Source: Rhizobium vallis (GTDB lineage Bacteria; Pseudomonadota; Alphaproteobacteria; Rhizobiales; Rhizobiaceae). From it: a DNA stretch of 64,000 nt. The notes under the pieces were generated by a model that worked only from the letters and a program-made list of their open reading frames with translations, ran no database searches and was not told the DNA's origin. Both the position numbers and the translations under genes were made by a program. Of this stretch, positions 30,460 to 53,473 are shown one piece after another (within the stretch, counting starts at the first letter, position 1; every line of letters begins with the position of its first letter). Where the stretch lies: assembly GCF_003985155.1 (NCBI RefSeq), contig NZ_ML133687.1:310001-374000 (forward strand), written 5' to 3'.

Positions 30460-30486
30460 GCGCCAAAGCCGTCCTTCAATTCGCTG

Positions 30487-35500: not shown

Positions 35501-35690
35501 CGTCGGCATCACGGAAGTGGTCAATCCTGTCTGTCAGCGCCCATTCGAGTCCATCGAATAGTGAGGACTTACCGATACCGTTGCTGCCCTGAACGATCAG
35601 CACGCCGGGACCGTCACGGAGGCGAATATCCAACTGCCTGAAGGTTCGGTACTGCTCTAGCCGGACGCGGGTAAGGTAAACGCTGCTCAT
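32577..35690 (-). pseudogene. SMC/Rad50-like ATPase of Lamassu type (LmuB-like), interrupted by an in-frame stop
   Basis: A single frame of 1,038 codons broken by TAA at 33738-33740; reading resumes in the same frame without a shift. The N-terminal half (650 residues from the ATG at 35690, which overlaps the previous stop as ATGA) has Walker A GSNGIGKSSLFDGLEWAL near residue 35 and a zinc-hook-like CDCPVC near 500, with coiled-coil sequence around it. The C-terminal part holds the ABC signature-like SEGQMAALSVSM, Walker B GLVLDDPLQHND and the H-loop LLSTHDR. A GTG at 33680, 19 codons after the stop, could restart translation and give two subunits. Otherwise the ATPase is inactive. Family knowledge: LmuB senses foreign DNA and activates the effector. 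Confidence 0.82.
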
Positions 35691-36334: not shown

Positions 36335-38721
36335 GTCAGTACCCTATCGCGATCGTTGTTCTGCCGCTCACGCCACGCCTGAAATTCTTCCTTCACCGCG
36401 GTTTTCCACGCAGGAAGCCCAGTCTTGAGTGCCGTGCGCCACGGCCCATCATTCCGAACGATCGCCGGCTTGGTACGTCGCGCTACATCAAGCCCGGTTC
36501 CGGGATCTCCGCCGTTCAGGATTGTGTCGTCAGGTCCTGTTACGAATACCTCGGAGCTGCGAGAGAGGATAAGGGCGTCGACGTCCCAATGTTCGGGCAA
36601 ACTCCATTCAGTGAGCAAGCCGCCATCGTCCAACTTGTCAGCGGATGAACCCAGTGCATGCCCGTTCTCGTCGAAGCTAAGATTTCCTCTGGGCACTGAT
36701 GCCGGCTGGAGTGGCTCACCGAGGTGGGTTGCAAGGATCAGCACCAATGCGCCCGCCATGCGCTCGAGCACAGTTACGTCGCCGCTCCATGGCTTTGCGC
36801 TCTCAGGGCCGATACTGCCCAACCAAGCAAGGAAATCACGGCGGAGGGCGGGTGACGCATCAAGTGTATGGCGCCATCCGGCCCAGGTGGCGAGAACCTC
36901 TGCAAAAACATCTGCTGCGACCTTTCCCAAAGTATCGCATGTACCAGCAGCCTGCGCTGCTACGAGCATGGCTTCCAATTGGCGGACGAGAGAGGCATCG
37001 ACATGCTCTCTGATATTGATCGCGCTTACCAACCGGTAGGGATAGCGTGACGCCGCAGTCATAGCGGTGGCGGCGTTGGGCAGCCTGGATTTCCACGCCT
37101 CTTGCACGGTTGCTCCAAGGCTGAGGGTGATCTTGCCTCCACTGGCTTTGCTCAAGCGAATCAAGTCATCAGCGTCGATTTTCTCCGGTGTCACCTCTAG
37201 TTGCACGACGACAGGTGTGGCCGCGGACTCGCACTGGGTCACCAGCTCCTCAAGCAAGACCTTGCCGCGCTGCACCAATGTCTGGGTCGCGACGTCCCAG
37301 GTGACTAAAATGGTGGAGGCCTCAAGGGCGGATCGCCCGGCGAGCTGCGATTTTCTGGCAGCGTCGGCAAGTCTATGCAGCCAGAGGTCGAAAAACACAG
37401 TATAAGTTTCGGCATCGAGGGTGGGCGGGACAAGCAGTTCGGGCTTCGCCTTGAACCGGTCCGTGGATACCCTCTGATACTCGTCGAACTGCTCTTTTGC
37501 TGGGAAATACCGCTCGTTCTTATCTGGGCCATGCCGCAGGATCACATGATGGAACCGCTTCACAAGGGCTGCCCCATTCAAGGTTATCCCTACAGGCTCA
37601 AGGCCATCTGCGTGCTCGATCACATCTTCGATCATACCGGAGCTGCGGCGGACGACGACACCTTTCTGCTGAGCTGCGTGCAGGACAGCGAAGACCATTG
37701 CTTGGTTGAGCTGAGCTGCCTTTCCCACTGAGAACAGCGGACCGCTGGAGTTGACGGTCAGAAGCCGATCGGCCCGGACTTGCGGCACCAGCCGATCTAG
37801 TATCCCCCGCTCACCAAAGGTCGTGAGCACGTCCTTCTCGAATATCGGCTCCAGATCAGCCTCCGGCGCGAGACCCTCGTACGCCTTCAGGACAGTAGTT
37901 CGCAGGATGTCTTGATTGAAATAGCCGAGGAAGGTCTCTGTAAACGGGACGTGCTCGAACCCATCGATAAGGAGGTTTAGGATGTCAGTTAGTGCGCCAT
38001 CGCCATTCCCGCTTACAAGATAGGTCGCAGGCGCAATGGCCTCGACCGCGGCTGTCCCGACGCCCCGCTCCTTCCAATAGTCATAGGTGTCAGCCGCCCC
38101 GACGGTCCGTTCGTCTCCAAAGCCCATGGCGAGGAAGACCTTCTGGACGATCTTTGACACGCCACCGGCGAACGTCATTCGCCATTCCGCACCGGACTTT
38201 TCCAGCTTCTCGAGGCGAGCTCCCTTATTCCAAATGAGCTTCGGGAGCATGGCGTTGTGGCTATGGAATTCGGCTGCTAGCCGCTTCGCGATCGGCTTGC
38301 CGGTATCCAGATCCCAGTCGAGGAACGGCAATCCGGCGCTCTTGTCGAGCGACCCTGGCGCTGGCCATTCGTAGATATGGGGATGGAGCAGGCGAGGCGA
38401 GGCGCTCTGAAGTTGAAGCACTTCTAGCGCGGGGTCGTACAGGCCGACGTCGTAGTCCAGAAGGCCCAGTGCCAATGCGCAAGTCACGCCCGCGGCGCCA
38501 CCACCGACAACGGCCACTGTATCGTTCGGCTTAAGCATGCCTCGCTCGTGCAGCGCTCTGACCAATCGGAATGCACGGACCTGCTGGGAATAGAATGTGA
38601 TGCGCCGCTCGAACGTGCCTAGAAAATATAGACCGTCGCTTCCCGGCAGCGTGCTTGCCGTAATCCAATCATTTAGCGGGTCCGAGATACCGATCATGCC
38701 TACTTTGCTCGGCGCGGGCAT
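36331..38721 (-). CDS. Lamassu-type effector with FAD/monooxygenase-like domain (LmuA-FMO-like)
   Basis: 796 residues. A Rossmann dinucleotide-binding motif, DTVAVVGGGAAGVTCALALG (glycines at 73-78), is followed by an acidic strand end (VGLYDPALE) and a second part typical of FAD/NAD(P) oxidoreductases (FLAMGFGDERTVG, then ATYLVSGNGDGALTDILNLL). The last 400 residues are unfamiliar and may be the conserved effector-coupling domain. Lamassu variants with an FMO effector are known, and this matches in neighbours and order. The effect would be depletion of NAD(P) or another redox toxicity; this is inference. The ATG at 38721 is preferred over a TTG at 38748; the ATG at 38697 is also possible. 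Confidence 0.74.
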   Translation of the reverse strand: MPAPSKVGMIGISDPLNDWITASTLPGSDGLYFLGTFERRITFYSQQVRAFRLVRALHERGMLKPNDTVAVVGGGAAGVTCALALGLLDYDVGLYDPALEVLQLQSASPRLLHPHIYEWPAPGSLDKSAGLPFLDWDLDTGKPIAKRLAAEFHSHNAMLPKLIWNKGARLEKLEKSGAEWRMTFAGGVSKIVQKVFLAMGFGDERTVGAADTYDYWKERGVGTAAVEAIAPATYLVSGNGDGALTDILNLLIDGFEHVPFTETFLGYFNQDILRTTVLKAYEGLAPEADLEPIFEKDVLTTFGERGILDRLVPQVRADRLLTVNSSGPLFSVGKAAQLNQAMVFAVLHAAQQKGVVVRRSSGMIEDVIEHADGLEPVGITLNGAALVKRFHHVILRHGPDKNERYFPAKEQFDEYQRVSTDRFKAKPELLVPPTLDAETYTVFFDLWLHRLADAARKSQLAGRSALEASTILVTWDVATQTLVQRGKVLLEELVTQCESAATPVVVQLEVTPEKIDADDLIRLSKASGGKITLSLGATVQEAWKSRLPNAATAMTAASRYPYRLVSAINIREHVDASLVRQLEAMLVAAQAAGTCDTLGKVAADVFAEVLATWAGWRHTLDASPALRRDFLAWLGSIGPESAKPWSGDVTVLERMAGALVLILATHLGEPLQPASVPRGNLSFDENGHALGSSADKLDDGGLLTEWSLPEHWDVDALILSRSSEVFVTGPDDTILNGGDPGTGLDVARRTKPAIVRNDGPWRTALKTGLPAWKTAVKEEFQAWRERQNNDRDRVLT

Positions 38722-39005
38722 CCTCGCGCACAGCGCGGCGCCGACCAATTGCTCCGAATTCGTTGTTTCCCCCAGCTCAGGATTTCCAAAGGAATCCGAA
38801 GCACCGGGTCAATCCTTGCCGGCAAAATCCGGCCCGCGCAATAGTCGATCTACGAAAGAACACCCCAAAAGGTTGAGTAGGTCGTTTTGGAGTGACGATT
38901 GGGGAGACCGTCCGCTTCTGGCAATCGGCCGAAGCAGCATTTACGACCGAGGCGCGTAGCCGCCGTGCCGCGGTGGTTGCCAGTAAGGTAGCTTCGGCGC
39001 TCAGC

Positions 39006-39022
39006 GCGGAAATTATTTCCGC
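39006..39022. repeat. 17-base perfect palindrome, copy 2
   Basis: GCGGAAATTATTTCCGC: two perfect eight-base arms around one central T. It differs by one base from the reverse complement of the copy at 32317-32333. It may be an operator for the divergent promoters or one end of a mobile unit that carries the Lamassu-like operon. Confidence 0.65.
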
Positions 39023-39193
39023 TTACGCCGCCGGTTGCCGCCACGCGAAGAACCCAGGCGCAAATCCCCTCTGTGAGGCATCAGGAGCAGTTAACAGTCG
39101 CCACGGTAGAGGGTCGTATTGTAGAACTGAGTTGGATAGGTGGCAATTTCGTAAAGTTCTTGTGTGGTACAAGTAGAACGTTGGCCTTTCGCC

Positions 39194-39234
39194 AATCACA
39201 CGACCGTGATCGCTAATCGTTTAGTCACGTGATT
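39194..39234. promoter_or_regulatory. imperfect inverted repeat next to the start of the exo-RecQ-UvrD gene
   Basis: Arms AATCACACGAC (39194-39204) and GTCACGTGATT (39224-39234) match at 9 of 11 positions and end 14 bases before the ATG at 39249. They could be a repressor site, or an RNA hairpin that covers the ribosome-binding region, which has no clear Shine-Dalgarno sequence. Confidence 0.4.
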
Positions 39235-39248
39235 AGAACTTGTTGCAA

Positions 39249-42200
39249 ATGGCTGAGCCTCTCCAACACTTCCTGCAGCGTTGCGTTTCGATCGACCTGG
39301 AAGTTGATCCTGCAACTGCTAGCATCTTCGCTTTTGCGGCAGTGAGCGATGATGCTCGTCTCTCGATCCTGGCAAAAAAACGCGATCTCGTGATGGCCCT
39401 CGACCGCCTGGAAGCAGAAGCAACCGAGGGCGTGCACCTGCTCGGCCACAACATACTTCGGCATGACTTGCCTCATCTGTTCGCGGTGCGGCCCGGGTTG
39501 GCGAATGTTCTTCGATCACCGATAGACACTCTATGGCTCAATCCCCTCGCATTTCCGCGCAATCCCTACCACCACCTGGTCAAACACTACCATGACGGGC
39601 GCCTGCAAGCGGGCCATGTCAACGATCCCGAACTGGATGCGCGACTGGTGTTTCAGGTAATGCGCAATCAACTGGCGGCTTTGAGGCAGCAGAACGCCGA
39701 CCAGCCCGATGCCGTTGCGGCCTTTCATTTCCTTGCTACGAGGATGGAGAACCCAGGTGGGTTCGACGCGGTGTTTCGGGAGGTTCGCGGAGCTCCCGCG
39801 CCCGATCCTCTTGCGGCACAAGAAGCGATTTCCCGGCTTCTGGCGAGGCGCGCCTGCGGGATGCGGCTCGAGCAGACGCTGAACCGCCTTTCTAATCCTC
39901 AGCTCGGTTGGCCGATGGCCTATGCTTTGTCCTGGATCCTGGTTGCGGGCGGGGATTCCGTCATGCCGCCCTGGGTACGGGCGCAGTTCCGCGAGGCTGC
40001 ACTGATCGTGCGGCATCTACGCGACGCTAATTGCAAAAGCCCGTATTGCGCCTGGTGTAGCGAGAAGAACGACCCGGTGCGCGCGCTGTCACGCTGGTTC
40101 GGGTTCGATGCCTTCCGCGCGGAGCCCGTGGATGATATGGGCCGCCCCCTACAGCAGCGGATCGTCGATGAGACGATGCGCGGGTCGAGCGCCCTCGGCA
40201 TTCTGCCGACCGGCACCGGCAAATCGGTCTGTTATCAGATTCCCGCCCTGTCGAGGTTCGACAAGACCGGAGCGCTGACAGTGGTGATCTCGCCGCTGGT
40301 CGCGTTGATGGCTGATCAGGTGCAGGGTATGGCGCGGGCAGGGATATCCTCTGCCGTGACCGTCAATGGAATGCTTTCGATGCCTGAGCGGCAGGATGCG
40401 CTGGATCGTGTCCGCATGGGAGAGGCCGCAATGCTCCTGATCTCACCCGAGCAATTGCGCAGCAACTCGGTTCGATCGGTTCTGGCACAGCGTGAGATCG
40501 GGCTCTGGGTGCTGGACGAAGCGCATTGTGTGTCGAAATGGGGACACGATTTCCGGCCTGATTACCGCTATGTCAGCCGCTTCATCAAGGAATCTTCGGG
40601 CGATGAAGCGCCTGCCCAGGTGCTCTGCCTAACCGCCACCGCCAAGCCAGAAGTGGTGCGGGACATCCGAGAGCATTTCAAGTCACAGATTGGACGCGAA
40701 CTTTTGCTGCTGGACGGTGGCGCAGTGCGCACCAATCTCAGCTTCGAGGTCCGGCCGACGCAGCGCGGCACCAAGCTGGCGGACATCCTCGATGTGATCG
40801 AGACCAAGCTACCACAGGAGGGCGCTTCGGGTGCCGTGGTTTATTGCGCCACCCGCAGCGAGACACAGCGAGTGGCCGAGTTCCTCAAGCAGCAGGGTCT
40901 GTCCGCGGAACGGTTCCACGCCGGGCTGACGTCCGAGGAGAAGCGTGACATTCAGGAACGATTTCGCATCGGAGATCTGCGAATTATTGCTGCGACCAAC
41001 GCCTTCGGCATGGGGATCGACAAGCCCGATATCCGATTGGTGGTCCATGGCGACATTCCCGGATCACTGGAGAACTATCTGCAGGAAGCGGGGCGAGCGG
41101 GCCGTGACCGTGCCCATGCCAACTGCGTGCTGCTCTTTGGCGAAGAGGACGTCGAGCGCCAGTTCTCGCTTTCGGCTCGCTCGCGCTTAGCCCGGCACGA
41201 AATCGGCGCGATCCTCAAGGCCCTGCGGCGTCTTGACGAGCGGACGAAAAAGACCGGCACCGTGGTCGCTACGTCGGGCGAAGTCGTGCGAGCTGAACGC
41301 GATCAGGAATTCGAGCGCGACACTAACACCGACGACACCAGGGTGAAGACCGCGGTATCATGGCTGGAGGAGGCCACGCTGCTGAGCCGCGAAGAGAACA
41401 AGGTTCAGGTCTTCCCCTCATCGCTCAGGATCCGCAACCTGGAGGAAGCCGAGGCGATTCTGGCCAGAGCCGCGATCACCGGCACCCGTCGCAAGCAGCT
41501 TCTGGATATCACGCGCCACTTGATGAACGCGCCGCCCGATCAGGGCATTTCCACCGACGAGCTGGCCGGGATCAGCGGATTGACAGGGGGTATGCTGAAC
41601 AAGGCGCTGGCCGATCTCGAGGCGCTCGGGATCGCCCGCAACGACGTCGTGGTCACGATATTTGTCCATGTTGCGGTGGACGGTCATTCGCAGCAGCGCC
41701 TGACGCAGGCCGCGCGACTTGAAACGGCGCTGATTGCCCTGATGCGGGAGGCCGCCCCAGATGCGGAAGGCGCAGGAGACGTTCCCTTGCATCTGGCTGA
41801 AACCTGCCAGGCGCTCCGCAATCAGGGGCACAGCGCAGTGCGGCCCGACATCGTGGAGAAGCTCTTGCGTAGCATGGGCCGCGACGGGCGCGATCAGGAT
41901 GGTGGTAAGGGAAATCTGCGGCTGCGCAAGGCTTCGCGCAACACGTTGATGGTCACGCTGCAACGGTCTTGGCAGGCGTTGGAACAGACAGCAATCCTGC
42001 GGCAGCAGGGGGCAGAACGATTGCTAGGGCACCTTCTGGGCAAGTTGCCGAAGGGTAGCCGCGGCAAGGACATCCAGGTCGAGACCACGATGGGTGACCT
42101 GCTCGCCACCCTGACAGGAGACGCGCTGCTGCGCGGCAGCGGCATTCAGGACATGACAAAACTGATGGAGCGCGCACTCCTGTGGCTGCACGAGCAGGAG

Positions 42201-44351
42201 GTTGTGACCCTCGGCAAGGGACTGACTATTTTCCGGCAGGCGATGACGGTTCATTTGAACCCTTCGGGCGGCCAGTTCACCGTAAAGGATTTCACACCCT
42301 TGGAGGATCACTACACGGAGCAGACCATTCAGACCCATGTGATGGCGGCCTATGCAGAAAAGGGCCTTGCCGCGATGGAGCAGGCGCTGCGGCTGTCCGA
42401 GGATTACTTTGTGCTGGAGCGCGACGCCTTTCTGCGCCGCTGGATGCCCGGCAAGGGTGGTGAGATCCGGCGTCAGACTACTGGCAGCTCTTGGAAGACG
42501 ATCGTAGAGGCGCTGAAGAATCCAGTCCAGCAGGAGATTGTCGCTGACGACCGCGAACAAACAAGCGTCCTGGTTCTTGCAGGACCGGGCTCGGGCAAGA
42601 CGCGCGTTCTGGTGCATCGCATCGCCTACATAATCCGTGTCCGCCGTGAGGACCCGCGCGGCATCCTCGTGCTGACCTACAACCGTCATGCCGCTGCCGA
42701 GATACGCATCCGGCTGCGGCATTTGATCGGCGATGATGCGGCTGCGGTGACCATATCCACTTGTCACGCACTTGCGATGCGACTGGTGGGCGCGAGCTTT
42801 GCCGGAACTGCAAACGAGACGTCCCACGACTTCGACGGGATCGTTCTGGAGGCAGTGCGCCAGTTGAACGGGGAAGGACTGAGCAAACCGGAGGCAGAGG
42901 CACAACGTGATACGCTGATTCAAGGCTACCGCTGGATCCTGGTAGACGAGTATCAGGACATTGGCCCCGAGGAATATGCTTTGATCTCGGCCGTCGCAGG
43001 CCGCTCGCTGGACGATAAGGAGCTTCGGCTCAGCCTGTTTGCGGTAGGCGACGATGATCAGAATATCTACGCTTTCGCTGGGGCGTCCATCCGCTTCATC
43101 CGCCAGTTCGAGGCCGACTATAGCGCACGACCGATGTTTCTTGTCGAGAACTACCGCTCGACTGGGCATATCATTACCGCCGCCAACGCAGTCATAGCGC
43201 CAGCCGTGGCCCGCATGAAAGCCGGCCATGACATTGCCATAGATCGCAAACGCATCAAGGCTCCGCCCGGAGGAGATATGGCGGCGCTCGATCCGGTAGC
43301 CCATGGGAGGGTGCAGGTGTTGGACTGCCCGCCCGGCGATGTGGCGCAGGCGATGACCGCGGTTGATGAACTCGTCCGACTATCACGCCTCGATCCGGAG
43401 TGGAGCTGGTCGCGCGCGGCGGTCATAGCTCGCGACTGGCGGCGGTTGGCCCCAGTGCGCGCCTATGCCGAAAAGCTTGGCATTCCGGTGGAGATGGCAA
43501 ATGAGAGCCTGCCAAGCATCTGGCGTTTGCGTGAGATGCAGCAGTTTATCGATGTCCTGCGCCGCGATTCGACACGTCTGCTGGGCGTGCGTGATCTGGT
43601 GGGCGTGCTGAATGCGATACAGTCCAATCGCTGGACGGATCTGATCGGCGAAGGCATCGCCGCGCTGGCCAAGGAGCTTGCGAACAAGACCATGCCCGTA
43701 CCTGACCTCGTCGAGTGGTTCGCTGAGTGGGCCCACGATGCGCGCAGCGATCAGCGCGCACTCCTGCTACTGACAGCGCATCGATCGAAGGGCTTGGAAT
43801 TCGACGACGTCGTCATCCTGAATGGCGGTTGGGACAAGCCTTCTAGGGGCGAGGATTCTGATGCGCCGCGCCGGCTTTTCTATGTCGCCATGACCAGAGC
43901 GCGACGTAGCCTTGCCATCATTGCCGAAGGACAGCATCCGTTCGTCCCGCACGGCGAAGAGCATGTGCTGCGCCGCGCCGCGCCAACCATCTCTGCTGCG
44001 GCCGATTTTCCCGCTGCGCTATACCAGGTGCCGAACCTCAAGACCGTGGACCTGTCGTGGGCCGGACGCCTCGGCCCCGGTCATCCCTCGCTTACCGCAA
44101 TCTCGGCGGCAAAGGCAGGGGACCCACTTCAGATCGTGCGCGATGGCCCTACTTGGATGATGCAAGATTCTCGGGGGCAAACTCTCGGACGCATGGCCAA
44201 AAGCTGGTCGCCTCCTGAGGGTCTCAAGTTCCTCCGCGGCGAGGTCGGTGCCATCGTGCGCTGGCGCAGGGCCGACAACCAGGAAGAGTTCCGGGTGCAC
44301 CTTCGCCGAGATGTTTGGGAGGCGGTCGTGCCTGAGCTCGTCTTCGGATAA
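39249..44351 (+). CDS. DEDD exonuclease-RecQ helicase-UvrD helicase fusion
   Basis: 1,700 residues. Residues 1 to about 180 look like a DnaQ-type DEDD 3'-5' exonuclease (CVSIDLEVD, LLGHNILRHDLPHLF, NDPELDARLVFQVM). About 290-750 is a RecQ-like SF2 helicase: Walker A GILPTGTGKSVCYQIP near 318, VLDEAHCVSKWGHDFRPDYR near 421 and QEAGRAGRDR near 611. About 1090 to 1580 is a UvrD/Rep SF1A helicase: LVLAGPGSGKTRVLVHRIAY near 1107, WILVDEYQDIGPEEY near 1228, GDDDQNIYAFAGAS, TAHRSKGLEFDDVV and FYVAMTRARRS. The ATG at 39249 is preferred over a TTG at 39240. Likely role: unwinding and degrading DNA, either in repair or in defence. The next gene is convergent. Confidence 0.9.
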   Translation: MAEPLQHFLQRCVSIDLEVDPATASIFAFAAVSDDARLSILAKKRDLVMALDRLEAEATEGVHLLGHNILRHDLPHLFAVRPGLANVLRSPIDTLWLNPLAFPRNPYHHLVKHYHDGRLQAGHVNDPELDARLVFQVMRNQLAALRQQNADQPDAVAAFHFLATRMENPGGFDAVFREVRGAPAPDPLAAQEAISRLLARRACGMRLEQTLNRLSNPQLGWPMAYALSWILVAGGDSVMPPWVRAQFREAALIVRHLRDANCKSPYCAWCSEKNDPVRALSRWFGFDAFRAEPVDDMGRPLQQRIVDETMRGSSALGILPTGTGKSVCYQIPALSRFDKTGALTVVISPLVALMADQVQGMARAGISSAVTVNGMLSMPERQDALDRVRMGEAAMLLISPEQLRSNSVRSVLAQREIGLWVLDEAHCVSKWGHDFRPDYRYVSRFIKESSGDEAPAQVLCLTATAKPEVVRDIREHFKSQIGRELLLLDGGAVRTNLSFEVRPTQRGTKLADILDVIETKLPQEGASGAVVYCATRSETQRVAEFLKQQGLSAERFHAGLTSEEKRDIQERFRIGDLRIIAATNAFGMGIDKPDIRLVVHGDIPGSLENYLQEAGRAGRDRAHANCVLLFGEEDVERQFSLSARSRLARHEIGAILKALRRLDERTKKTGTVVATSGEVVRAERDQEFERDTNTDDTRVKTAVSWLEEATLLSREENKVQVFPSSLRIRNLEEAEAILARAAITGTRRKQLLDITRHLMNAPPDQGISTDELAGISGLTGGMLNKALADLEALGIARNDVVVTIFVHVAVDGHSQQRLTQAARLETALIALMREAAPDAEGAGDVPLHLAETCQALRNQGHSAVRPDIVEKLLRSMGRDGRDQDGGKGNLRLRKASRNTLMVTLQRSWQALEQTAILRQQGAERLLGHLLGKLPKGSRGKDIQVETTMGDLLATLTGDALLRGSGIQDMTKLMERALLWLHEQEVVTLGKGLTIFRQAMTVHLNPSGGQFTVKDFTPLEDHYTEQTIQTHVMAAYAEKGLAAMEQALRLSEDYFVLERDAFLRRWMPGKGGEIRRQTTGSSWKTIVEALKNPVQQEIVADDREQTSVLVLAGPGSGKTRVLVHRIAYIIRVRREDPRGILVLTYNRHAAAEIRIRLRHLIGDDAAAVTISTCHALAMRLVGASFAGTANETSHDFDGIVLEAVRQLNGEGLSKPEAEAQRDTLIQGYRWILVDEYQDIGPEEYALISAVAGRSLDDKELRLSLFAVGDDDQNIYAFAGASIRFIRQFEADYSARPMFLVENYRSTGHIITAANAVIAPAVARMKAGHDIAIDRKRIKAPPGGDMAALDPVAHGRVQVLDCPPGDVAQAMTAVDELVRLSRLDPEWSWSRAAVIARDWRRLAPVRAYAEKLGIPVEMANESLPSIWRLREMQQFIDVLRRDSTRLLGVRDLVGVLNAIQSNRWTDLIGEGIAALAKELANKTMPVPDLVEWFAEWAHDARSDQRALLLLTAHRSKGLEFDDVVILNGGWDKPSRGEDSDAPRRLFYVAMTRARRSLAIIAEGQHPFVPHGEEHVLRRAAPTISAAADFPAALYQVPNLKTVDLSWAGRLGPGHPSLTAISAAKAGDPLQIVRDGPTWMMQDSRGQTLGRMAKSWSPPEGLKFLRGEVGAIVRWRRADNQEEFRVHLRRDVWEAVVPELVFG

Positions 44352-44679
44352 GAGATCAGGCTTGAGCCCGTTTGAGACCTTTGCAGTTGCAGAAACGTCT
44401 GCTTCCCGCGCGGTAACACTCGAGCCGTCAGGCGTTGGAAACGGGAGGCTTCCGGCTGACCCATTGCACTAGAAGGACAGGAACCTTGGCTTAGAGACTT
44501 GATCGGATCCGCTAGTTGTCGAAGACTATCTGGTCTCGCAGGTGACATTTCTGCTGCCGGACAATCCTCGCCGTTCCGAAACCGAGGCTTGATGTCTGCT
44601 TACGCTGCCAACTCACCGAGCTAGGCATCATCGTCGCACTTGCCGACGGAGATGTTCGAGATCAGCCCACAGTTGAGCC
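44352..44679. other. intergenic region between convergent helicase genes
   Basis: About 330 bases between the stops of two convergent genes. I see no gene and no strong stem with a U-tract; terminators for both genes should lie here. Confidence 0.5.
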
Positions 44680-47600
44680 TTAGCCGCCGAACAAGGTGTC
44701 GGCCAACCGCGCGATCGAGCCGCTGTCGATGCCCCCGGCGAGATTGTCTTCGGTCACGACGAGCCGTCCTGTCGGGTTTGCGGGGCTCCATTCTGTGATG
44801 CCTTGTGCGGCATACCACTGTTTCTTTCGCGCCCACCGCTCGCGGTATTGCGGCTGCCCCATCAAACCGCAATGCTCCCAATACCAGACGTCCTGACCCT
44901 TCTCGATCGTGAAGTCTGGCCACCGGGTTGCACCAGCCGCGTCGGTCAAAGGCTTCTCGAAGCTGTATCGGATACGTTGTCGCTGTTCGAAGTCATTGAG
45001 GATGTCGGCGATCACAAGCTCTGACTTCGAGCTCACAAGGTCGCCGCGCCGAGTCGCGTGGATCAGCTTCGCTGCGAGCCAGCCCGTCCGAAGGCCGCCG
45101 GTCGCGACAACCGACATTTCCTGCATCACTGTCAGCCCGAAGAGGTTGGTCGAACGCCGTTTAGTTTCGGAGAAGAAGTCTGATCGCAGGCGAAGCAGAT
45201 TTCCCAAGCTCCCTTGATGCAGCACCCAAACGCGGTTCTTCTGCCTCGTGAGAGCGGTGTAGAGCATCTCTCTTGACAGAAGCCGGCTGTTCTCCGGCAT
45301 CACGAGTATGACCGTCCCGAACTCTGATCCCTGTGCCTTGTGCACGGTGACGGAATAGGCCAATTCAAGATAGGGGCTTCCTTCATCAGAGAAGTCCTTT
45401 CGAGAAAAGCCGTACGTTTCTCCGAGCTGGGACGCAAACTCGACATTGGTGTAGACGAGCCGGTGCTCACCCGAATCACCGTGGACCATCCCAATCTCGC
45501 CGTTTGCGAGATATCCTCTCTGGCGGCCCTCTTGTTTGCTCCAGCAGCCGCGCGAGTGGTTGCGGAGGCAGATCACTTTGTCGCCGTAGGTGATCTGATC
45601 GGAGCCACGGGGCTCGATCATTCGCCAACCGCGGCCTCGACGACGGGCCTCATGCAGGCGGGCCGCCCGAACGGTCTGCTTCATGAAGCGGTTGAGCTCG
45701 GCCGATCCGCTGGCCATGTTTCGATGGGCGGAAAGTATCTGCCAGCTTTCCGCCTTCGTTCCGCAGCCACGATTGAAATAGATGAACTCCCCATTGCGAG
45801 TTCCGCCTAGGGAGAGTTCGAGCCCAGCCTCCAGCTCACCGTCCCGAGCTCCGAACTCGAGAGCAAGCACATCTAAAAGCCGCTCTCGCAGAGTCGCGGG
45901 TGTATCCCAGGTCAGCAGCTTGAGGCGCTCGTTGTCCTGCCGCAGAGCCTCGCACGTGATCTCGTCCTCCCCCGGTTCGGAAGGGCGCCCGGAGAAGACA
46001 TTGGCGAGCTGGACGTCGGGCAGCGAAAGTGCTGGAACGAGTTCATCGCCAGCCTGCCGCCGGCTCACCGTCAGGTCCGCGAGACCCGCGCCTGCATGTT
46101 CGTCCCGCAAATGGGCAATGATGTCGACGAACGGTCGGCCAGCACCGATGGGCGGCAATTGCTGAGGATCGCCCACTAGAACCAATCGTGCCGAGATTGG
46201 CAGCGCACTGCAGAGAGCCGCCAGTTGGTCCTCGGTGAGCATTGAGCATTCGTCGACGACACATGTGGATACGGCGGCCGTTGCCCCATCCGAGACGGCA
46301 ACATACCGACCCGTGTCCGCATCGTAGCGGCCATGCTCGAGAAGGAACTGCGCGAGCGTGCGGGCCTGGTCCGGCCGCTTCGTCTGCTGGCCCAGTCGCA
46401 CTCGCGCCTTGCCCGTCGGAGCGAGCAACAGCACGTCGCTGCCGACGATCTTCTTCTGATCGAGAAAGAGCTTGAGGAGCGTCGTCTTTCCGGTGCCGGC
46501 TGGTCCGGTTAGCACGCCGATTCGACTGGTCTCTAGCATCTCCAGCGCTCGGACCTTCTCTTCCTGCGCGGCGATCTCGTCTGCGTCAGCTCTGGCAGGC
46601 GCTCCAAACTCCCTTTCGACGAGTGGGCGCCATTGGATCGCGGGCTTTGCCACTCCGATCCGTTCGCCGACGTGTCGGGCTATGATCTCGCCAGCTTCGA
46701 CGTAACGGACCAACTGAGCGAACACGGCACCGTCTTGCAATGTGACGGCCACCTCGGGCGCGAAGTCGTCGGCGCAAATCTCGAGGGCTGTCTCATCCGC
46801 CGATGCGGGCGCTGAAAGCGGCAAAGCCTCAACGATGCTGGTCAGGCGCTTGGCGGAAAGAATTGTATCGCCGTCGGCCGCAGCCTTCTCAAGGGCCGCG
46901 ATGACGAGAGCCCGCAGCCGAAGTGGGTGCTCCGGTTCTTCTAGGTCGATCGACATGCCTTCGGGAAGGCCCGGTCGGACCGTCGCCGCATCCATCGGGA
47001 ACATGCTGCGGTCGACTGTACCCAGAGCAACAGGATCGGCGGTATTTCTCGATAGCTCATAAAGTCGGTAGGGGTTGTCGAGGATCGTCTCGACGTCGTC
47101 GCCATCGAACGCCGTCTTCGCTTGGTCGCGGGTCAGCTCGAAGCAGGCGAGGAGGCGCATGAGCCGCATGCCCTCGGGATCCGTTCGGTGAAGGTGCTGC
47201 CAGCGCTTCCGCTGCATCGTCGTGACGCGCGGCGCGCCAGTTGGTGGCTTGCGCCGATCGGCGAAGATTTCCTCGACGATCGGCCAAGGGTCCGTCCCAT
47301 CCGCCAGCTCACCCGCTAAGGCGTGGGCAAAAAGGGTGCCGTTGAAGTGCGGGTCGAAGCAGGACAATGCGCTACCCAAGCCCGGTGCCGGACCCTGCAT
47401 TGACCAGAGTTCGCTTAGTTCCCGATCGATCCATTCAATATAGCGCGCCCAGGGTCCGGAAATGATGCTCGAGACAGCTTCGAGAGAGGCGCGGACCGAC
47501 TGTAGCGCGCTGATAGCGCTGCCGTGCGTGATGTGGTCGGTGCCGTAGAGGAACTGATCGTAGGCGTCATCGGGCACTTCGGCAGCCAGGCCGGACACAT

Positions 47601-48396
47601 CAAGATCGTCACGAGTCGCGGCCCGAGCGATCAGAGCGTGGTAAGGAAGCACGACGCCGCCGAGCCACGCTCCCTCTTCATCCGGATCTGGTCTAAGCGT
47701 GTGCTGAAAAGGCCGCTCCCAGATCATCGACCGGATGCGCCCGTCCGCGCCGCCCCCCTCGTATGGATATTCAAAGACCTTTCCGAGTGTCGCCAACTTC
47801 GCGACCGCGACGATCTGACGTCGGGCCGAGTCCGTTAGCGGAGTCTGCTTCGCGTAGAAGAAGATCAGCGAGCTCGTTTCCGACAGGCTGTCGGCGAAAC
47901 CTTCAAGGAGAGCAGCCTGGTTGTCGCAGTCCTGCACCCATGCGGTATCTACGATCAGGTCAGGGGCTTCACCTTTTTTTGGTTCGTTGCCCTCGCTCGC
48001 CTCGATGCCGTAGGCGTCAGCGAGCTTCCAGGCATGCTCGCGCAGCATCCATCTGTAAGGAGTAAGCACGCCCCCGTAGGCCGGCACATGAACAGATTGA
48101 GGAAGGATGTGGCGGTGGTCGGCGCTGTAGTCGGCGTAATCGAGTTTGGTAGGCAAGGAGACCGGGAACGGAGATAGAAAGCCTCCCCGCTCGGATAAAC
48201 ACGGCGGAGCTTGCTCCATGTCGTCAAATCGGGTTCCGGCGCATGAAGCCTCGTAGGCGTCGTTCCGATTTTCGGCCGTGCGCTTCAAAGCAAGGCAAGC
48301 AGAATTAGCTCGGGCGTCTTGGCATACGCGACCGTTCCACATTGAGTCATGCCAAGGCACGCGGACCGACAGGTGACGCACATTTCCTCGACCCAC
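44680..48396 (-). CDS. RecD-like SF1B helicase with C-terminal PD-(D/E)XK-like nuclease
   Basis: 1,238 residues. The N-terminus carries a Cys/His/Trp-rich motif (VPWHDSMWNG, then VC and NSAC, residues 14-34) that I recall from the starts of other large RecD-like ATPases; this supports the GTG at 48396. An uncharacterised middle follows. The SF1B core has LTGPAGTGKTTLLKLF near 635, CVVDECSMLTEDQL near 713, LVGDPQQLPPIGAG near 740, AYSVTVHKAQGSEFGTVILV near 1013 and YTALTRQKN. The last 120 residues read like a PD-(D/E)XK nuclease: SKSELVIADIL (glutamate), RWPDFTI (aspartate), then VWYWEHCGL and a lysine-rich helix. It would unwind and cut DNA. It diverges from the GHKL-helicase gene, with 111 bases between. 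Confidence 0.85.
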   Translation of the reverse strand: MGRGNVRHLSVRVPWHDSMWNGRVCQDARANSACLALKRTAENRNDAYEASCAGTRFDDMEQAPPCLSERGGFLSPFPVSLPTKLDYADYSADHRHILPQSVHVPAYGGVLTPYRWMLREHAWKLADAYGIEASEGNEPKKGEAPDLIVDTAWVQDCDNQAALLEGFADSLSETSSLIFFYAKQTPLTDSARRQIVAVAKLATLGKVFEYPYEGGGADGRIRSMIWERPFQHTLRPDPDEEGAWLGGVVLPYHALIARAATRDDLDVSGLAAEVPDDAYDQFLYGTDHITHGSAISALQSVRASLEAVSSIISGPWARYIEWIDRELSELWSMQGPAPGLGSALSCFDPHFNGTLFAHALAGELADGTDPWPIVEEIFADRRKPPTGAPRVTTMQRKRWQHLHRTDPEGMRLMRLLACFELTRDQAKTAFDGDDVETILDNPYRLYELSRNTADPVALGTVDRSMFPMDAATVRPGLPEGMSIDLEEPEHPLRLRALVIAALEKAAADGDTILSAKRLTSIVEALPLSAPASADETALEICADDFAPEVAVTLQDGAVFAQLVRYVEAGEIIARHVGERIGVAKPAIQWRPLVEREFGAPARADADEIAAQEEKVRALEMLETSRIGVLTGPAGTGKTTLLKLFLDQKKIVGSDVLLLAPTGKARVRLGQQTKRPDQARTLAQFLLEHGRYDADTGRYVAVSDGATAAVSTCVVDECSMLTEDQLAALCSALPISARLVLVGDPQQLPPIGAGRPFVDIIAHLRDEHAGAGLADLTVSRRQAGDELVPALSLPDVQLANVFSGRPSEPGEDEITCEALRQDNERLKLLTWDTPATLRERLLDVLALEFGARDGELEAGLELSLGGTRNGEFIYFNRGCGTKAESWQILSAHRNMASGSAELNRFMKQTVRAARLHEARRRGRGWRMIEPRGSDQITYGDKVICLRNHSRGCWSKQEGRQRGYLANGEIGMVHGDSGEHRLVYTNVEFASQLGETYGFSRKDFSDEGSPYLELAYSVTVHKAQGSEFGTVILVMPENSRLLSREMLYTALTRQKNRVWVLHQGSLGNLLRLRSDFFSETKRRSTNLFGLTVMQEMSVVATGGLRTGWLAAKLIHATRRGDLVSSKSELVIADILNDFEQRQRIRYSFEKPLTDAAGATRWPDFTIEKGQDVWYWEHCGLMGQPQYRERWARKKQWYAAQGITEWSPANPTGRLVVTEDNLAGGIDSGSIARLADTLFGG

Positions 48397-48507
48397 AGTA
48401 AACTCCCGACTGATTCTACGTTTCAGCTCAGGCTATCGAGGGCATCTTACCTTAACAACTCGATTAATTTTGTTCACGTAGATTAGGATCGTCTGCAAGG
48501 GGGAGCA
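48397..48507. promoter_or_regulatory. divergent promoter region of the two helicase genes
   Basis: 111 bases between two GTG starts pointing outward. The part at 48451-48487 is AT-rich (TTAACAACTCGATTAATTTT, then a TAGATTAGGAT stretch) and should contain the rightward promoter. AAGGGGGAG at 48498-48506 is a strong ribosome-binding site for the rightward gene. Sharing this short region suggests the two genes are expressed together. Confidence 0.5.
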
Positions 48508-51500
48508 GTGGTGACAACAAAAATTGCAGTGGCGAACAGTAATGACAACGACTTCGGTTCTCTGAAAGCTTTTGTTGCAGAGGAGTGCGATCGTCGGCTC
48601 CGGGCGTACAGCGCGCAGCCGCGAGACGCGAACGAGCACTATGAAACTGAGATCGAGGTGCTGTCGGGCGGCTACGCCTATCGTCAACTCTTCGAGCTTG
48701 TCCAAAACGCCGCCGACGCTATCGGCGAGGGAGGAGAGGGCCACGGCCGCATCCATGTCCGACTGGACCGCTCTCACTTGATGGCGGCGAACACGGGGGC
48801 GGCCCTCGACCGGGACGGTGTCGTCGCGCTACTCAATGCTCGAAGCTCGTCAAAACGGGCCGGGCAGATAGGCCGGTTCGGAATCGGGTTCAAGTCGCTC
48901 CTTAAGCTCGGTGGAAGCGTGGAACTCGTCAGCCGCTCGATAGGCCTCCGCTTCGACCCAGAATGGTGCCGTGCAGCGATCCGTGCCCATCTAAGTCTCG
49001 GAGCGGACGCACGCGCGCCGGGAATGAGGCTGGCGAAGGTTCTGGACCCTGCCAGCCAGGGCAGCCCGCTGTGGAAGTATGATGGCTTCGAGTGGGCGAC
49101 GACCGTGGTCACGGCGGAGATCGTCGAAGCAGGGGTCTATGACCGTCTCGCGGACGAGATGGTCGCGTTCCCCGCTGAATTCGTACTATTCCTCGAAGCG
49201 GACATCGAACTCATCCTTGAGGGGGGCGCGGGCGTCACGCGCACGATCAGACGTCACCGGGATGGTGACGTGTTCGTCGTCGATGACGGCACGATGGTGA
49301 GTCGCTGGCGCCTCTTCCAGACGAAGGTCCGGATCACGGACGCGTCGGCTAAAGCGGACGCCCAGCATCTCCAGGCCCGGGACGAAGTCCCGCTTGCGTG
49401 GGCGGTGCCGCTGGGCGCGCGCGAGGTCGCAGGTCGCTTCTGGGCGTTCTTTCCGACGCAAAGCGAGACGCTGGCTTCGGGCATCCTGAACGCACCCTGG
49501 AAGCTGAACAGCGACCGCACCAATGTGATCGCTGGCCCGTGGAATTCGGCTCTCATGAGGGAGGCGGCGCGCCTCATCGCAGACAACATCACCGCACTTT
49601 CGACACCGGAAGATCCGGGCGCCCCCGTGTCCGCCCTTCCGCGGCAGCTCGAACGGAAGGACGAGCTGGCCGCCGCGCTCATCGATCCACTCTGGGACCT
49701 CCTCGTCGGCCGGGCGATCCTCGCCGACGGCGCCGGCCGGCTCAGGGGTGCTTATGAGTTGGGTCGCCATCCGGTCGAGGATGGGGAGGCGCTCAAGTGG
49801 TGGTCAGCCTTCGCCGATGAAACGGTAAAGCGCAGGCTCGTCCATCCGAGCTGCCAGTCGGGGCGGCGGCGCGCTTCGAGGCTTGAGGCGTATGCCCGCG
49901 AATCGGGGGCGCGTGCGCCCAAGGACGCCGCGCCGGCTCTGACCCAGTGGAACGAGGGCGCCTGGCTGGAGGCGGCAGCGGCAGCGGAGCCGAGTGCGGC
50001 GATTCCCTTCCTCCACTTCGTCGACGAGGTGGTGAACACCGGGAAGCTCATCGCGCAGCAGCGGATCCGACAAGCACAGATAGTACCGTCGCAGGAAGTT
50101 TCGCTGATCCGTCCTCATGATGCGATCATCGCGCCTCTCAATCTAGTCCCGTCTGGACTTACGGCCGTCTCGCTCGCCGTGGCCAGGGATGAGCGTGCCA
50201 ACCGCTTCCTTACCGAGACGCTGGCTGTGAAGGAGCTCACCCCAGACGTCTGGCAGACTGTGCTTACGGAGTCGCTGATGAACGCGGTTTCCATTGATGA
50301 TGAGAAGAGTTGGACCATCTTCTGGGCGAACCTATCCGAGGCTCCCGGCGAAGCGGTCGACAAGTTTCTCGAAGACAACGAGATCACCGAGCTGCGATAC
50401 CGAAACGCGGAGGGCGAATTCTGCCCGCGTGACGAGCTGATCGCAGTAAGCCAGGAGGATGAGGCTGGCGTCTTGCCCCAACTGAAGCTGGATCTTGAGT
50501 TTCATGCCCCCCATCGTAGTCGGCTGCCCGACGAGATATGGCAGACCTATCCGCCTCTGGCGTACAACGCTGTTGCCGAATGGGACGGCCTGAGTTCGGA
50601 GCGGATACAACCCTACTTCGACAAGGTTTGCCAGCTCGGTTTTCGCAAAATGACAGGCAACCCGCAATACGGGAAGCTTGGAATTCTGGATCGTGACCAG
50701 ATCCTCATGCCTTCCGGTTGGCGTCTACTTCCCCTCCTGCCGGCAGCACATCAGGCCGAGCTCACACTGCGCCTCATCCAAGCTACAGAGCGCACCCGTT
50801 GGGGTATAGCCACGAACGGCACGCCGCCGATGCTTCCGCAGATCATCTATGGCCACTTCACTAGGCGGGACCGGTACCAGGCCCTTTCGGCGGCCCACCC
50901 GCTAATCTTCTGGCTGATACGATACGGCGTGCTTGCGGTTGGATCTGCGTTGGTCCGCCTGCAAAGTCTTCCGGGCGAGGTCGCCCACGCGCTAGCTGAC
51001 CTTGGACATGCCGGGGGTCAGAGGGTTCAAGCTGTGCTCCTCGCACACGCAGCTCAGACGAACATCCGTGTCGGGCGCGATGTCGACAATCTCAATCCTG
51101 AGCTGAAGTCCGGCTTCTGGGCGTCAGTCTTTTCGGAGGTTGCCGTGGCGCGAGAGAACCTTCCCAAACTCAGGCCTCTCTGGGAGCGAGCGGCGTCCGA
51201 CGAGGAGACACCCACCTTGGTGCCCACATCGGCGGGACCGATGGCGATCGGCGAGATTTTCGTCGGCATCGACGGGCAAGCGGCGGCAGCGAACATCGAC
51301 GACGGCCGCATCGTGATACTCTCAGGGGCTGCTGCCGAAAGCTGGGAGGCAGCAGGGGCGAAGCCCCTTTTGGAAAATAGTGACGTGGAGGCAGATGAGC
51401 AGCTAGGGGATCCGCTGCGTCTACGCGACATCTTTCCTGAGTTGGCATTGGTGTTGAAGACGCGGGCGGCAAAGCGAGCGGACGCCGTATGGGTGCGTGG

Positions 51501-53280
51501 CCTCGTTGAACGCGCAGGGCACAGAGTCACGACACCGGTGATCGCACGCGACAGCACCGGCCTCATCATGATCGATCGGGACAGGTTCCGCCTGCTCGGA
51601 TGGCTCAAGGGCAGGCGGCAAATCCTTGACGCGCTGATCTCGTTCGGTCTGCTGGAAGGCGACGCCGGCAACCTCGTCGAGGAACTGGCAGCATCGCGCG
51701 CGCTGGAGGCGCGGGCAAAAGTGAGGGAGGCGAACGGTCTTCCAGCAAGGCTGCTCAGAGCCATTGGAGAGACGCCTCATCCGTTGATTTCTATCCTCCC
51801 GGAACCGGTCGTCGAAGCAATCGATGGCACACTTCCTGATGAGAGCGTGGCCGAGCTCGCCCTTGCGGTGCACGGTCCGACGATCCTGACGAAGCTAATC
51901 AGCGTCCTGGAGGCGGAGGGGCTTCAGCCGCCGGGACGCTGGGGCGGCGAGGCGGCACGGCAGTTCGTGGTCGAACTCGGCTTCCCGATAGAATTCGCCA
52001 CCAGCGCCTCCGTCCGCCGAGACGCCGAGTTGCTCGTGAGCGGTCCGATCGTGCTTCCCGAGCTTCACGACTATCAGAAGGGCATCCTCGACCAACTCGA
52101 AGATCTACTGTCGTCCGGAGCCGGCCGGCGGCGCGCCGTAGTCAGCCTGCCGACCGGCGGCGGCAAGACGCGCGTCGCCGCGGAGGCAGTGGTGCGCCTC
52201 GTGCTAAACGGACAAGAAGCCAGGAGTGCGTTGTGGATCGCGCAGACCGACGAGCTCTGCGAGCAGGCAGTGCAATGCTTCCGGCAGCTATGGTCAAACC
52301 TGGGGGCCGAAGGCGAGGAGCTACGCATAGTCCGCCTATGGGGCGGACAAACGAACCCCACCCCGCCGGAAGCCGGCGAGGCGATCGTCGTCGTGGCGAG
52401 CATCCAGACCCTGAATGCAAGGATGGAGCACGAGGGCCTCGACTGGCTGAGCCGGCCTGGAATCGTCGTCATCGACGAGTGTCACCATGCGATAGCACCC
52501 AGCTACAGCTCCTTGCTGCGGTGGCTCGATGTGCAGACCGGCGGGGAGGGCGAGCGTGATCGCGAACCACCGGTGCTCGGTCTCAGCGCGACGCCATGGC
52601 GTGGCCGTGACAACGACGAATCGGCTAGGCTTGCCAGCCGCTTCGACCGTCGATGGCTGCCAGCCGACCAGGAGGGGCTGCATCAGGAGCTCAAGCGCCG
52701 GAAGGTGCTATCCGAGCTCCATTACAGCCCCATCCAGTACGACCGTCCGGTGTACCTGTCACCATCCGACGTCAGGCACTTCGAGCAGTATGGCGAGCTG
52801 CCCGAGTCGGTCGTCGAGGAACTTGGCTCGGATCCGGACCGGAACAAGCGCATCCTGGACCGCGTGCTGTCGAGCAACGCCTCGTCCATCCTCCTGTTCG
52901 CGAATTCGGTGAAACACGCGCAATACCTTGCTGCGCGTCTGCATGTCGCCGGCTGCCCCGCTGCCGCGGTGAGCGGGGAGACGGATAGGCTGGCTCGTCA
53001 ACACTTCATCCGGCGCTTCCGATCGGGCGAGATCCGCGTGCTATGCAACCACAGCGTCCTGACGACAGGCTTTGATGCCCCTAGATCTGACATGGTCCTG
53101 ATCTCTCGACCGGTATTCAGCCCGGTCCGATACATGCAGATGGTGGGGCGCGGGCTGCGCGGTCCCGCCAACGGCGGAACTGAGACGTGCGAAGTCGCGA
53201 CGGTCGAGGACAACATCCTCAGCTACCGGGACAAGCTCGCCTACCACTACTGCCGGATGTTTTTCGATGTGGCCAAATAG
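48508..53280 (+). CDS. sacsin-type GHKL ATPase fused to an SF2 helicase
   Basis: 1,590 residues. The N-terminus is a GHKL (HSP90/sacsin-like) ATP-binding domain: RQLFELVQNAADAIGEGG near 60-77 (N-box, Asn), DRDGVVALLNARSSSKR and GRFGIGFKSLLKL near 123 (glycine lid). About 1,000 residues without recognised motifs follow. The C-terminal 400 residues are a DEAD/DEAH-type helicase: VSLPTGGGKTRVAAEAVV near 1214, IVVIDECHHAIAPSYSSLL near 1321, LGLSATPWRGRDND, TTGFDAPRSDMVLISRP and MQMVGRGLRGP. Start GTG at 48508 or 48511, both with a strong AAGGGGGAG site. Probable role: nucleic-acid remodelling in defence; the GHKL part may be a sensor or clamp. It converges with the BREX unit. Confidence 0.85.
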   Translation: MVTTKIAVANSNDNDFGSLKAFVAEECDRRLRAYSAQPRDANEHYETEIEVLSGGYAYRQLFELVQNAADAIGEGGEGHGRIHVRLDRSHLMAANTGAALDRDGVVALLNARSSSKRAGQIGRFGIGFKSLLKLGGSVELVSRSIGLRFDPEWCRAAIRAHLSLGADARAPGMRLAKVLDPASQGSPLWKYDGFEWATTVVTAEIVEAGVYDRLADEMVAFPAEFVLFLEADIELILEGGAGVTRTIRRHRDGDVFVVDDGTMVSRWRLFQTKVRITDASAKADAQHLQARDEVPLAWAVPLGAREVAGRFWAFFPTQSETLASGILNAPWKLNSDRTNVIAGPWNSALMREAARLIADNITALSTPEDPGAPVSALPRQLERKDELAAALIDPLWDLLVGRAILADGAGRLRGAYELGRHPVEDGEALKWWSAFADETVKRRLVHPSCQSGRRRASRLEAYARESGARAPKDAAPALTQWNEGAWLEAAAAAEPSAAIPFLHFVDEVVNTGKLIAQQRIRQAQIVPSQEVSLIRPHDAIIAPLNLVPSGLTAVSLAVARDERANRFLTETLAVKELTPDVWQTVLTESLMNAVSIDDEKSWTIFWANLSEAPGEAVDKFLEDNEITELRYRNAEGEFCPRDELIAVSQEDEAGVLPQLKLDLEFHAPHRSRLPDEIWQTYPPLAYNAVAEWDGLSSERIQPYFDKVCQLGFRKMTGNPQYGKLGILDRDQILMPSGWRLLPLLPAAHQAELTLRLIQATERTRWGIATNGTPPMLPQIIYGHFTRRDRYQALSAAHPLIFWLIRYGVLAVGSALVRLQSLPGEVAHALADLGHAGGQRVQAVLLAHAAQTNIRVGRDVDNLNPELKSGFWASVFSEVAVARENLPKLRPLWERAASDEETPTLVPTSAGPMAIGEIFVGIDGQAAAANIDDGRIVILSGAAAESWEAAGAKPLLENSDVEADEQLGDPLRLRDIFPELALVLKTRAAKRADAVWVRGLVERAGHRVTTPVIARDSTGLIMIDRDRFRLLGWLKGRRQILDALISFGLLEGDAGNLVEELAASRALEARAKVREANGLPARLLRAIGETPHPLISILPEPVVEAIDGTLPDESVAELALAVHGPTILTKLISVLEAEGLQPPGRWGGEAARQFVVELGFPIEFATSASVRRDAELLVSGPIVLPELHDYQKGILDQLEDLLSSGAGRRRAVVSLPTGGGKTRVAAEAVVRLVLNGQEARSALWIAQTDELCEQAVQCFRQLWSNLGAEGEELRIVRLWGGQTNPTPPEAGEAIVVVASIQTLNARMEHEGLDWLSRPGIVVIDECHHAIAPSYSSLLRWLDVQTGGEGERDREPPVLGLSATPWRGRDNDESARLASRFDRRWLPADQEGLHQELKRRKVLSELHYSPIQYDRPVYLSPSDVRHFEQYGELPESVVEELGSDPDRNKRILDRVLSSNASSILLFANSVKHAQYLAARLHVAGCPAAAVSGETDRLARQHFIRRFRSGEIRVLCNHSVLTTGFDAPRSDMVLISRPVFSPVRYMQMVGRGLRGPANGGTETCEVATVEDNILSYRDKLAYHYCRMFFDVAK

Positions 53281-53473
53281 GACCGTCCCATGCGCGGTCT
53301 GCTGCCGATCGTCTGCGGTGGTGTTGGGTGGCGCGCGCGCCTCCGCGGAAACAGGACAGTGTAATACTGAACAGCGCCGGGTTTGCCGGAGGCCATTTCG
53401 TTTAAGTTACGCAGCCATGGTTCGTTCGGCCAACATGGCGTAACGTTGCTCCTCGGCTTTGGCAGGGCAAAGG
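53281..53473. other. intergenic region with possible remnant of an insertion element
   Basis: About 190 bases between convergent genes. On the minus strand a short frame ends at 53407 with a tail reading AEEQRYAMLAERTMAA, which has the look of the C-terminus of a transposase or its accessory protein but has no body upstream. I cannot confirm this. No clear terminator hairpin was identified. Confidence 0.3.

Follow-up and report, generated by a model that had tools for sequence, protein, structure and literature searches.

Operons for restriction-modification (RM) belong to the islands in which GHKL ATPases, superfamily 2 (SF2) helicases and nucleases are already known to occur together. In the available part of PMC2292703, Iyer and colleagues propose that GHKL relatives encoded in RM operons are partnered by SF2 helicases and endonucleases and loop the DNA that separates a recognition site from the cut site; the words sacsin and RecD do not appear in the main text of that paper. 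The accessible part of PMC3710099 treats sacsin as a protein of animals and slime moulds, and the main text of the ARMADA paper (PMC12458937) contains no sacsin, HATPase or RecD. Here we analyse a 64,000-nucleotide stretch of Rhizobium vallis (the window; contig NZ_ML133687.1, positions 310,001 to 374,000), in which a gene for a RecD-like helicase with a nuclease tail (P2) adjoins a gene for a sacsin-type GHKL ATPase fused to an SF2 helicase (P3), beside a third large helicase gene (P1).

An earlier note on this DNA had proposed the three genes as an undescribed, cooperating defence system. The trio does not survive as a unit, but its core, the GHKL protein with the helicase-nuclease, does survive as an association that we found described nowhere. 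No system that couples a fused sacsin-SF2 protein to a RecD-type helicase-nuclease emerged from the matches to PADLOC-DB 2.0.0, and a literature search, with most subscription journals outside its reach, returned no title describing such a pair among its top matches and no paper on PDC-S68, the phage-defence candidate that P2 resembles. On a narrow balance, we favour the reading that P2 and P3 form a mobile two-gene cassette, recurring side by side in distant bacteria and likely acting as an antiviral DNA-processing machine.

P2 and P3 recur side by side in distant genomes

The window holds three long, intact open reading frames with no further large gene between them, as the earlier note had described (Table 1). 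P1 and P2 are convergent and 328 bp apart, and P2 and P3 are divergent. No sigma-70 consensus was found between P2 and P3, and a promoter and terminator scan returned no more sites than in shuffled sequences.

A collection of 84,980 species was scanned with a P3 alignment and two exact peptide patterns, and the best 80 stretches yielded 69 distinct loci (loci and genomes carry handles beginning with L and G). P3 scores above 200 bits in 61 of these, which come from named genome records, or in 59 when non-overlapping reading frames are used. P2 directly adjoins P3 in eight of them (8/61; 8/59 with non-overlapping frames), seven from Alphaproteobacteria and one from a metagenome-assembled genome of Opitutales, whereas P1 was found beside P3 in none of the 59. 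A crude Fisher comparison of 8/61 for P2 with 0/61 for P1, made on loci that are not independent, gives p 0.006. P1 is a fair control for this adjacency, as its frequency is similar: it occurs in 3 of 297 genomes of the window's own order against 4 of 297 for P2, and in 10 of 385 genomes of its class against 2 of 385 (own genome included and E limits differing in both comparisons).

The pair is supported by intact frames, by invariant residues of ATPase, helicase and nuclease type, by a block match in another genus and by three gene arrangements (Table 1). Gaps between the longest P2 and P3 frames run from -26 to +68 bp and vary with the start codon chosen. In L044, the ATG start of P2 overlaps the P3 stop by 4 bp; in L042 and L047, a 4-bp P3-P2 overlap arises only with TTG starts, later ATGs leaving a 1-bp overlap in L042 and otherwise gaps of 29-35 bp. 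The block match is to Komagataeibacter saccharivorans, in a contig (L029) that has no P1 beside the pair. Past the P2 end of the block this contig runs on unmatched for 2.0 kb, whereas past the P3 end just 312 bp remain.

A P3 tree of 40 rows, built by a quick method, requires 6 changes of the P2 label, at least 4 of them forced by supported branches. Locus L032 represents an independent pairing, since its P2 belongs to a distant subfamily (27% identity) while its P3 is 55% identical to that of the window. Four further P2-P3 pairs are suggested solely by P2 and P3 matches on contigs of the same size (10133, 15582, 28945 and 29370 bases).

Domain composition and relation to known families

The proposed description of P2 as a RecD-like helicase with a PD-(D/E)XK-like tail holds up. 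Its superfamily 1B (SF1B) motor is RecD2-like, with best PDB-sequence matches to RecD (1w36, 5ld2) and the RecD2-type 3e1s, and scores 191 bits against TIGR01448 (190.7, below the RecD2 equivalog cut-off of 500 bits). P2 differs from RecD2 and RecD in carrying ~480 additional N-terminal residues and the nuclease tail; we expect that it works like RecD2 but is not RecD2. The tail is supported by its fold, and it carries the conserved acidic residues and lysine of the PD-(D/E)XK superfamily. In PADLOC, P2 matches PDC-S68 at 1381 bits and over the whole model (residues 5-1236 of 1238 on model positions 4-1219 of 1221); this model covers P2 alone, and P3 matches no PDC model. The earlier statement that the genes match no named system thus needs amending for P2, a full-length PDC-S68 candidate, and stands with respect to Tiamat, DISARM, BREX, Gabija and Dpd. 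P2 is split in some relatives: into two separated pieces of 1207 and 154 aa with another reading frame between them in L239, and likewise into pieces in L003 and L021 (three in the latter).

P3 is likewise as first described: its ATP-binding domain is of sacsin type (NF047352, 66 bits), and its SF2 helicase resembles RadD. Among the structural matches listed, P3 is spanned mainly at residues 35-365, and the middle region (~365-1170) carries no assignment. The best PADLOC match of P3 is to Tiamat: residues 18-368 align with the N-terminal part of TmtA (8-358 of 1538) at 149 bits. The match to the best TmtA model, however, stops after this N-terminal quarter, and P3 ends in an SF2 helicase, leaving no match over the whole TmtA protein. 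The helicase domain resembles RadD (YejH), with 97 bits to NF053632 (96.7, against an equivalog cut-off of 720 bits), but RadD is a 586-residue chain without the long GHKL and middle regions. Closer in kind are the MORC and paraMORC proteins of RM operons, described in the available part of PMC2292703 as GHKL and S5 ATPases working with SF2 helicases and endonucleases; for MORC proteins the paper names a specific S5-domain motif, GhXhhpXXRhl. P3 shares with these RM-associated systems the GHKL plus S5/transducer ATPase module and an SF2 helicase in the same operon, which is fused in P3 and encoded by separate genes in L101 and L021; it differs from them in this fusion and in that the nuclease sits on the SF1B helicase, P2. 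Comparison with XPB-Bax1 is an analogy only, its nuclease being carried by another helicase class and a GHKL domain being absent.

None of 1514 phage records covers 80% of P3, the eight best listed matching its helicase domain only; in plasmids, 0 of 20 extend over 80% of P3, and the E. coli genomes searched gave no match. Stand-alone helicases related to the SF2 domain of P3 occur at L236:8680-10365 (561 aa) and L237:8539-10158 (539 aa), each with a PAPS-reductase-family gene within ~8 kb, a type of gene known from DNA phosphorothioation systems.

Partners in DISARM-like, RM and BREX loci

Of the 59 P3 loci, 11 contain DISARM-like genes, 4 contain type I RM genes and 2 contain BREX genes, together 17 loci with any of the three; P2 and DISARM-like genes never occur together (0/59). 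When P2 is counted as a fourth partner type, at least one of the four is present in 24 of 59 loci and none in 35, and none is present in 20 of the 33 loci with good flanks. P3 changes partners quickly: among closely related P3 proteins, those of L042 and L047 adjoin P2, those of L030 and L031 adjoin DISARM-like genes, and that of L181 adjoins a type I RM set. In the Devosia locus L034, the gene order is HsdM-P2-P3-HsdS, with PADLOC matches to the type I methylase and specificity genes.

The 11 DISARM-like loci with a P3 relative (L023, L024, L027, L030, L031, L045, L061, L064, L075, L076 and L082) contain DrmA in 11/11 and DrmB in 10/11, a UvrD-like gene in nine, a NERD-UvrD gene in eight and a C5 methylase in some, and they are possibly a DISARM variant. 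P2 also stands in one gene run with a DrmD-type SNF2 gene in L016, L021 and L101. DISARM as described comprises DrmA, DrmB, DrmD and a methylase, whereas the P2-P3 pair of the window has no drm gene: no DrmA or DrmB appears among the matches listed for P1 (25 of 81), P2 (15/15), P3 (20/20) and 13 other window proteins. The window PglX also matches DrmMI (737 bits), and scores higher as PglX.

Two loci carry the activities as separate genes. On a viral-class contig (L101:2896-13714), a DrmD-type SNF2 gene (393 bits), a TmtA-type GHKL gene (329 bits) and P2 stand in a row, a candidate three-gene relative of the P2-P3 pair. L021 combines P2 with three other proteins: one with a SACS domain (55 bits), one of 799 aa and an SNF2 protein of DrmD type (759 bits). 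Because GHKL protein and SF2 motor are separate genes in these two loci, P3 is plausibly a fused form of the two that cooperates with P2.

Alternative readings of the pair

Several observations weigh against P2 and P3 as a two-gene unit. P2 is lacking from 53 of 61 P3 loci, many of them at contig ends, and of the 33 P3 loci flanked by 3 kb or more on each side, 5 have it and 28 do not. Some P3 loci are fragments of one genome bin, so that 61 is not an independent count. P3 is found in none of the 14 P2 loci that were collected with P2 itself rather than P3 as bait (plasmids L003, L004, L005, L006, L007 and L239; genomes L016, L019 and L020; viral-class contigs L101-L105, one partial). In seven of these 14 loci (L003, L007, L016, L101, L102, L103 and L105), RM or SNF2-helicase genes belong to the same gene run as P2, so P2 and P3 may be separate accessories that come to lie in shared islands. 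On the P3 tree the P2 label clusters weakly, since 39 of 500 shuffles gave a count as low. Identities of P2 and P3 are partly congruent (r = 0.81 for 28 comparisons of 8 loci, the window and near-copies included), with L034 and L044 disagreeing. Pairing is therefore optional, and each member also has other partners.

Taken further, these observations make room for a possible, though clearly less favoured, alternative in which P2 and P3 are independent single-gene accessories recruited separately to defence islands, their adjacency reflecting a shared habitat rather than a shared mechanism. This alternative would also suit the higher frequency of P3 with DISARM-like genes (11/59) than beside P2 (8/59) and the entry of P2 in PADLOC as PDC-S68, where we take the 'S' to denote a single gene. 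It does not readily account for P2 and P3 genes that touch or overlap in several lineages, for the occurrence of both same-strand orders as well as the divergent one, for repeated pairing on the P3 tree, or for a DNA match of cassette size, when P1, a control of similar frequency, is absent beside P3.

We consider it unlikely that P3, with or without P2, is an accessory serving the adjoining BREX operon. Such a role would fit the genes of Stakelama (L025) and Sphingobium (L026), in which P3 follows brxL on the same strand at distances of 109 and 71 bp, and in the window the end of BrxL is 695 bp from the end of P3. There, however, P3 and brxL are convergent with a small reading frame between them, BREX is present in only 2 of 59 P3 loci, and all four scored partner types are absent from 35 of 59. 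No Brx or Pgl profile is among the family matches of P2 (15) or P3 (20), and the adjoining operon does match such profiles.

It is more improbable still that the pair serves mobile elements in repair or recombination instead of acting against viruses. Relatives of RadD, RecD2 and XPB-Bax1 act in repair, and viral-class contigs carry at least one P3 (L181) and at least five P2 relatives (L101-L105, one partial), but P3 is patchy in distribution (1 of 297 genomes) and is repeatedly placed with RM, DISARM-like and BREX genes.

P1 as a neighbour rather than a partner

That P1, P2 and P3 together make up a single defence system of three genes, as suggested by their adjacency in the window and by the presence of P1 and a distant P2 ~5 kb apart in genome G295, is hardly credible given that no P3 occurs in 30 P1 loci and no P1 in 59 P3 loci, that Lamassu-P1 and P2-P3 are separate DNA blocks matched in different genomes, and that five annotated plasmids show P1 without P2, P3 or any constant neighbour beside it. 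The P3 loci lacking P1 include both loci with the divergent order of the window, L022 and L029. The 30 P1 loci (L015/L016 in G295, L018 in G247, L221-L229, L230-L235 and L240-L252; some with partial genes or short flanks) include one, that of G295, with P2 near P1. Independent occurrence of homologues, named in the earlier note as what would speak against the trio, is thus found for P1, and the P2-P3 association remains as the core. P1 is likely a mere neighbour in the window, found elsewhere without the pair, and it is common in the protein database (at least 5207 scored matches).

The similarity of the Lamassu-P1 block to G295, which belongs to a different genus within the family, stops at the end of P1 and points to a recent transfer. 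Beyond P1, G295 continues with a DrmD-type SNF2 gene, a 537-aa gene and the distant P2 (38% identity), with no P3. A standing pair of P1 and Lamassu was considered and rejected: the two occur together only in the window and G295, which is one 99% block, and no LmuA-like match was found in L221-L229, L230-L235 or L240-L253. In L235, type I-D CRISPR genes lie ~4 kb from P1, and in L223 and L224, two genomes of one genus, P1 relatives have a common flank, as if resident rather than mobile.

The claim that P1 is an exonuclease-RecQ-UvrD fusion is borne out for its RecQ-type DEAD/Helicase_C and UvrD domains, and its best PADLOC matches are partial helicase matches. As a known exonuclease its N-terminus found no PDB-sequence match and, in Pfam, only an irrelevant match below threshold. 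A DEDD exonuclease is nonetheless plausible there because of the conserved residues D16, D73 and D130 (at position 16, D occupies 105 of 114 rows and gaps the other 9). P1 does not form the Gabija pair of a GajA OLD protein and a GajB UvrD protein: its UvrD part matches GajB in three stretches at 180 bits, and the only GajA matches in the vicinity come from LmuB and are weak (at most 21 bits). Nor is it a full-length DpdF accompanied by other Dpd genes, its best DpdF match (residues 275-669, 376 bits) being to a generic RecQ core.

Genomic setting of the window

The location between Lamassu-like and BREX operons is confirmed by profile matches on both flanks. To the left of P1 are LmuA (846 bits), LmuC (250) and LmuB (618 and 417, in two pieces); to the right of P3 are BrxL (1164), PglZ (1076), PglX (1407) and BrxC (679). 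The two LmuB frames (33738-35771 and 32577-33680; region 32577-35771) correspond to a single 1064-aa frame in the 99%-identical block of G295 (L015:6427-9621), so that the window copy is either broken or contains a sequence error. A 136-aa frame (53474-53884, minus strand) lies on the BREX strand between P3 and brxL. Positions 22938-31662 hold a surface polysaccharide cluster with NeuB, a cytidylyltransferase, a GDP-mannose dehydratase, an ABC exporter (weak Wzt-type match) and a glycosyltransferase. A candidate MADS system at 28-30 kb was rejected, its mad3-like match being misleading and due to the ABC transporter ATPase of this cluster.

Table 1. Features of the window, and arrangements of P2 and P3 in other genomes
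Feature	Position	Strand	Description
P1	39249..44351	+	RecQ-UvrD fusion with DEDD-like N-terminus; 1700 aa counted from ATG; neighbour, outside the P2-P3 pair
P2	44680..48396	-	RecD-like SF1B helicase with C-terminal PD-(D/E)XK-type nuclease domain (predicted); 1238 aa; PADLOC PDC-S68
P3	48508..53280	+	GHKL (sacsin/Hsp90/TopoVI-B-type) ATPase, predicted clamp, fused to RadD-like SF2 helicase; 1590 aa
P2 residues 606-1060, SF1B motor	45217..46581	-	Walker A G634-x-G636-K637-T638 and D715-E716 invariant in 28 aligned sequences
P2 residues 1111-1238, PD-(D/E)XK-type nuclease fold	44683..45066	-	E1126, D1161, E1174, K1191 invariant
P3 residues 35-365, GHKL and transducer fold	48610..49602	+	N67, D70, G97, G122, G125, G127 invariant in 32 aligned rows
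P3 residues 1180-1552, SF2 helicase of RadD/XPB/ResIII type	52045..53163	+	GKT 1219-1221 and DECH 1323-1326 invariant in 30 aligned rows; RadD structure 6jde 90 bits
P2/P3 divergent intergenic region	48397..48507	.	111 bp; putative shared control region
P2-P3 cassette	44610..53367	.	86.3% DNA identity to Komagataeibacter saccharivorans L029; block reaches 70 bp and 87 bp past the two stop codons
Lamassu and P1 block	32176..44347	.	12.2 kb, 99.1% identical to genome G295 (L015); similarity stops at end of P1
Divergent P2-P3, as in window			Sphingomonas jatrophae L022, Komagataeibacter L029
P3 then P2, same strand			Roseibium L047, Tabrizicola L042, Opitutales L044
P2 then P3			Mesorhizobium L032, Devosia L034
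Shortened copy, P2 adjacent to P3			Cereibacter L062

Proposed mechanism

The clamp, motor and nuclease of P2 and P3 are predicted from sequence and fold, gene context suggests that the two proteins act in one complex or one pathway, and the island context points to an antiviral action. GHKL-transducer proteins are ATP-gated clamps. From this property, and from the DNA looping proposed in the available part of PMC2292703, we draw a scheme in which the GHKL clamp of P3 would shut around invading DNA, the SF2 motor of P3 would pump that DNA, and unwinding and cutting would fall to P2. P3 would then be the DNA-gripping, switchable component, comparable to the TopoVI-B, MutL, MORC and Hsp90 modules, with P2 as the helicase-nuclease effector. 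The pair may work alone or be added to BREX, DISARM and type I RM, systems based on methylation in which the methyl marks would distinguish self from foreign DNA.

A bolder version, which we offer tentatively and regard as rather doubtful, holds that P2-P3 is both a stand-alone, undescribed two-gene antiviral system and a universal plug-in. An ATP-gated GHKL clamp-SF2 motor would load foreign DNA into a RecD-type helicase-nuclease. This device could be exchanged among BREX, DISARM and type I restriction operons and would read the methylation marks particular to each, while its blades, SF1 helicase-nucleases such as P2 or the UvrD/NERD-UvrD pair found in DISARM-like loci, would be interchangeable.

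Significance

With P1 dropping out of the hypothesis, work aimed at all three genes as a unit would be misdirected. PADLOC lists P2 as a candidate by itself and holds no full-length model for P3. The recurrent adjacency of the two genes, taken with the occurrence of the same three activities as separate genes elsewhere, turns these two orphans into one testable machine, and suggests that an exchangeable clamp-motor-nuclease accessory may be common to BREX, DISARM and type I RM systems.
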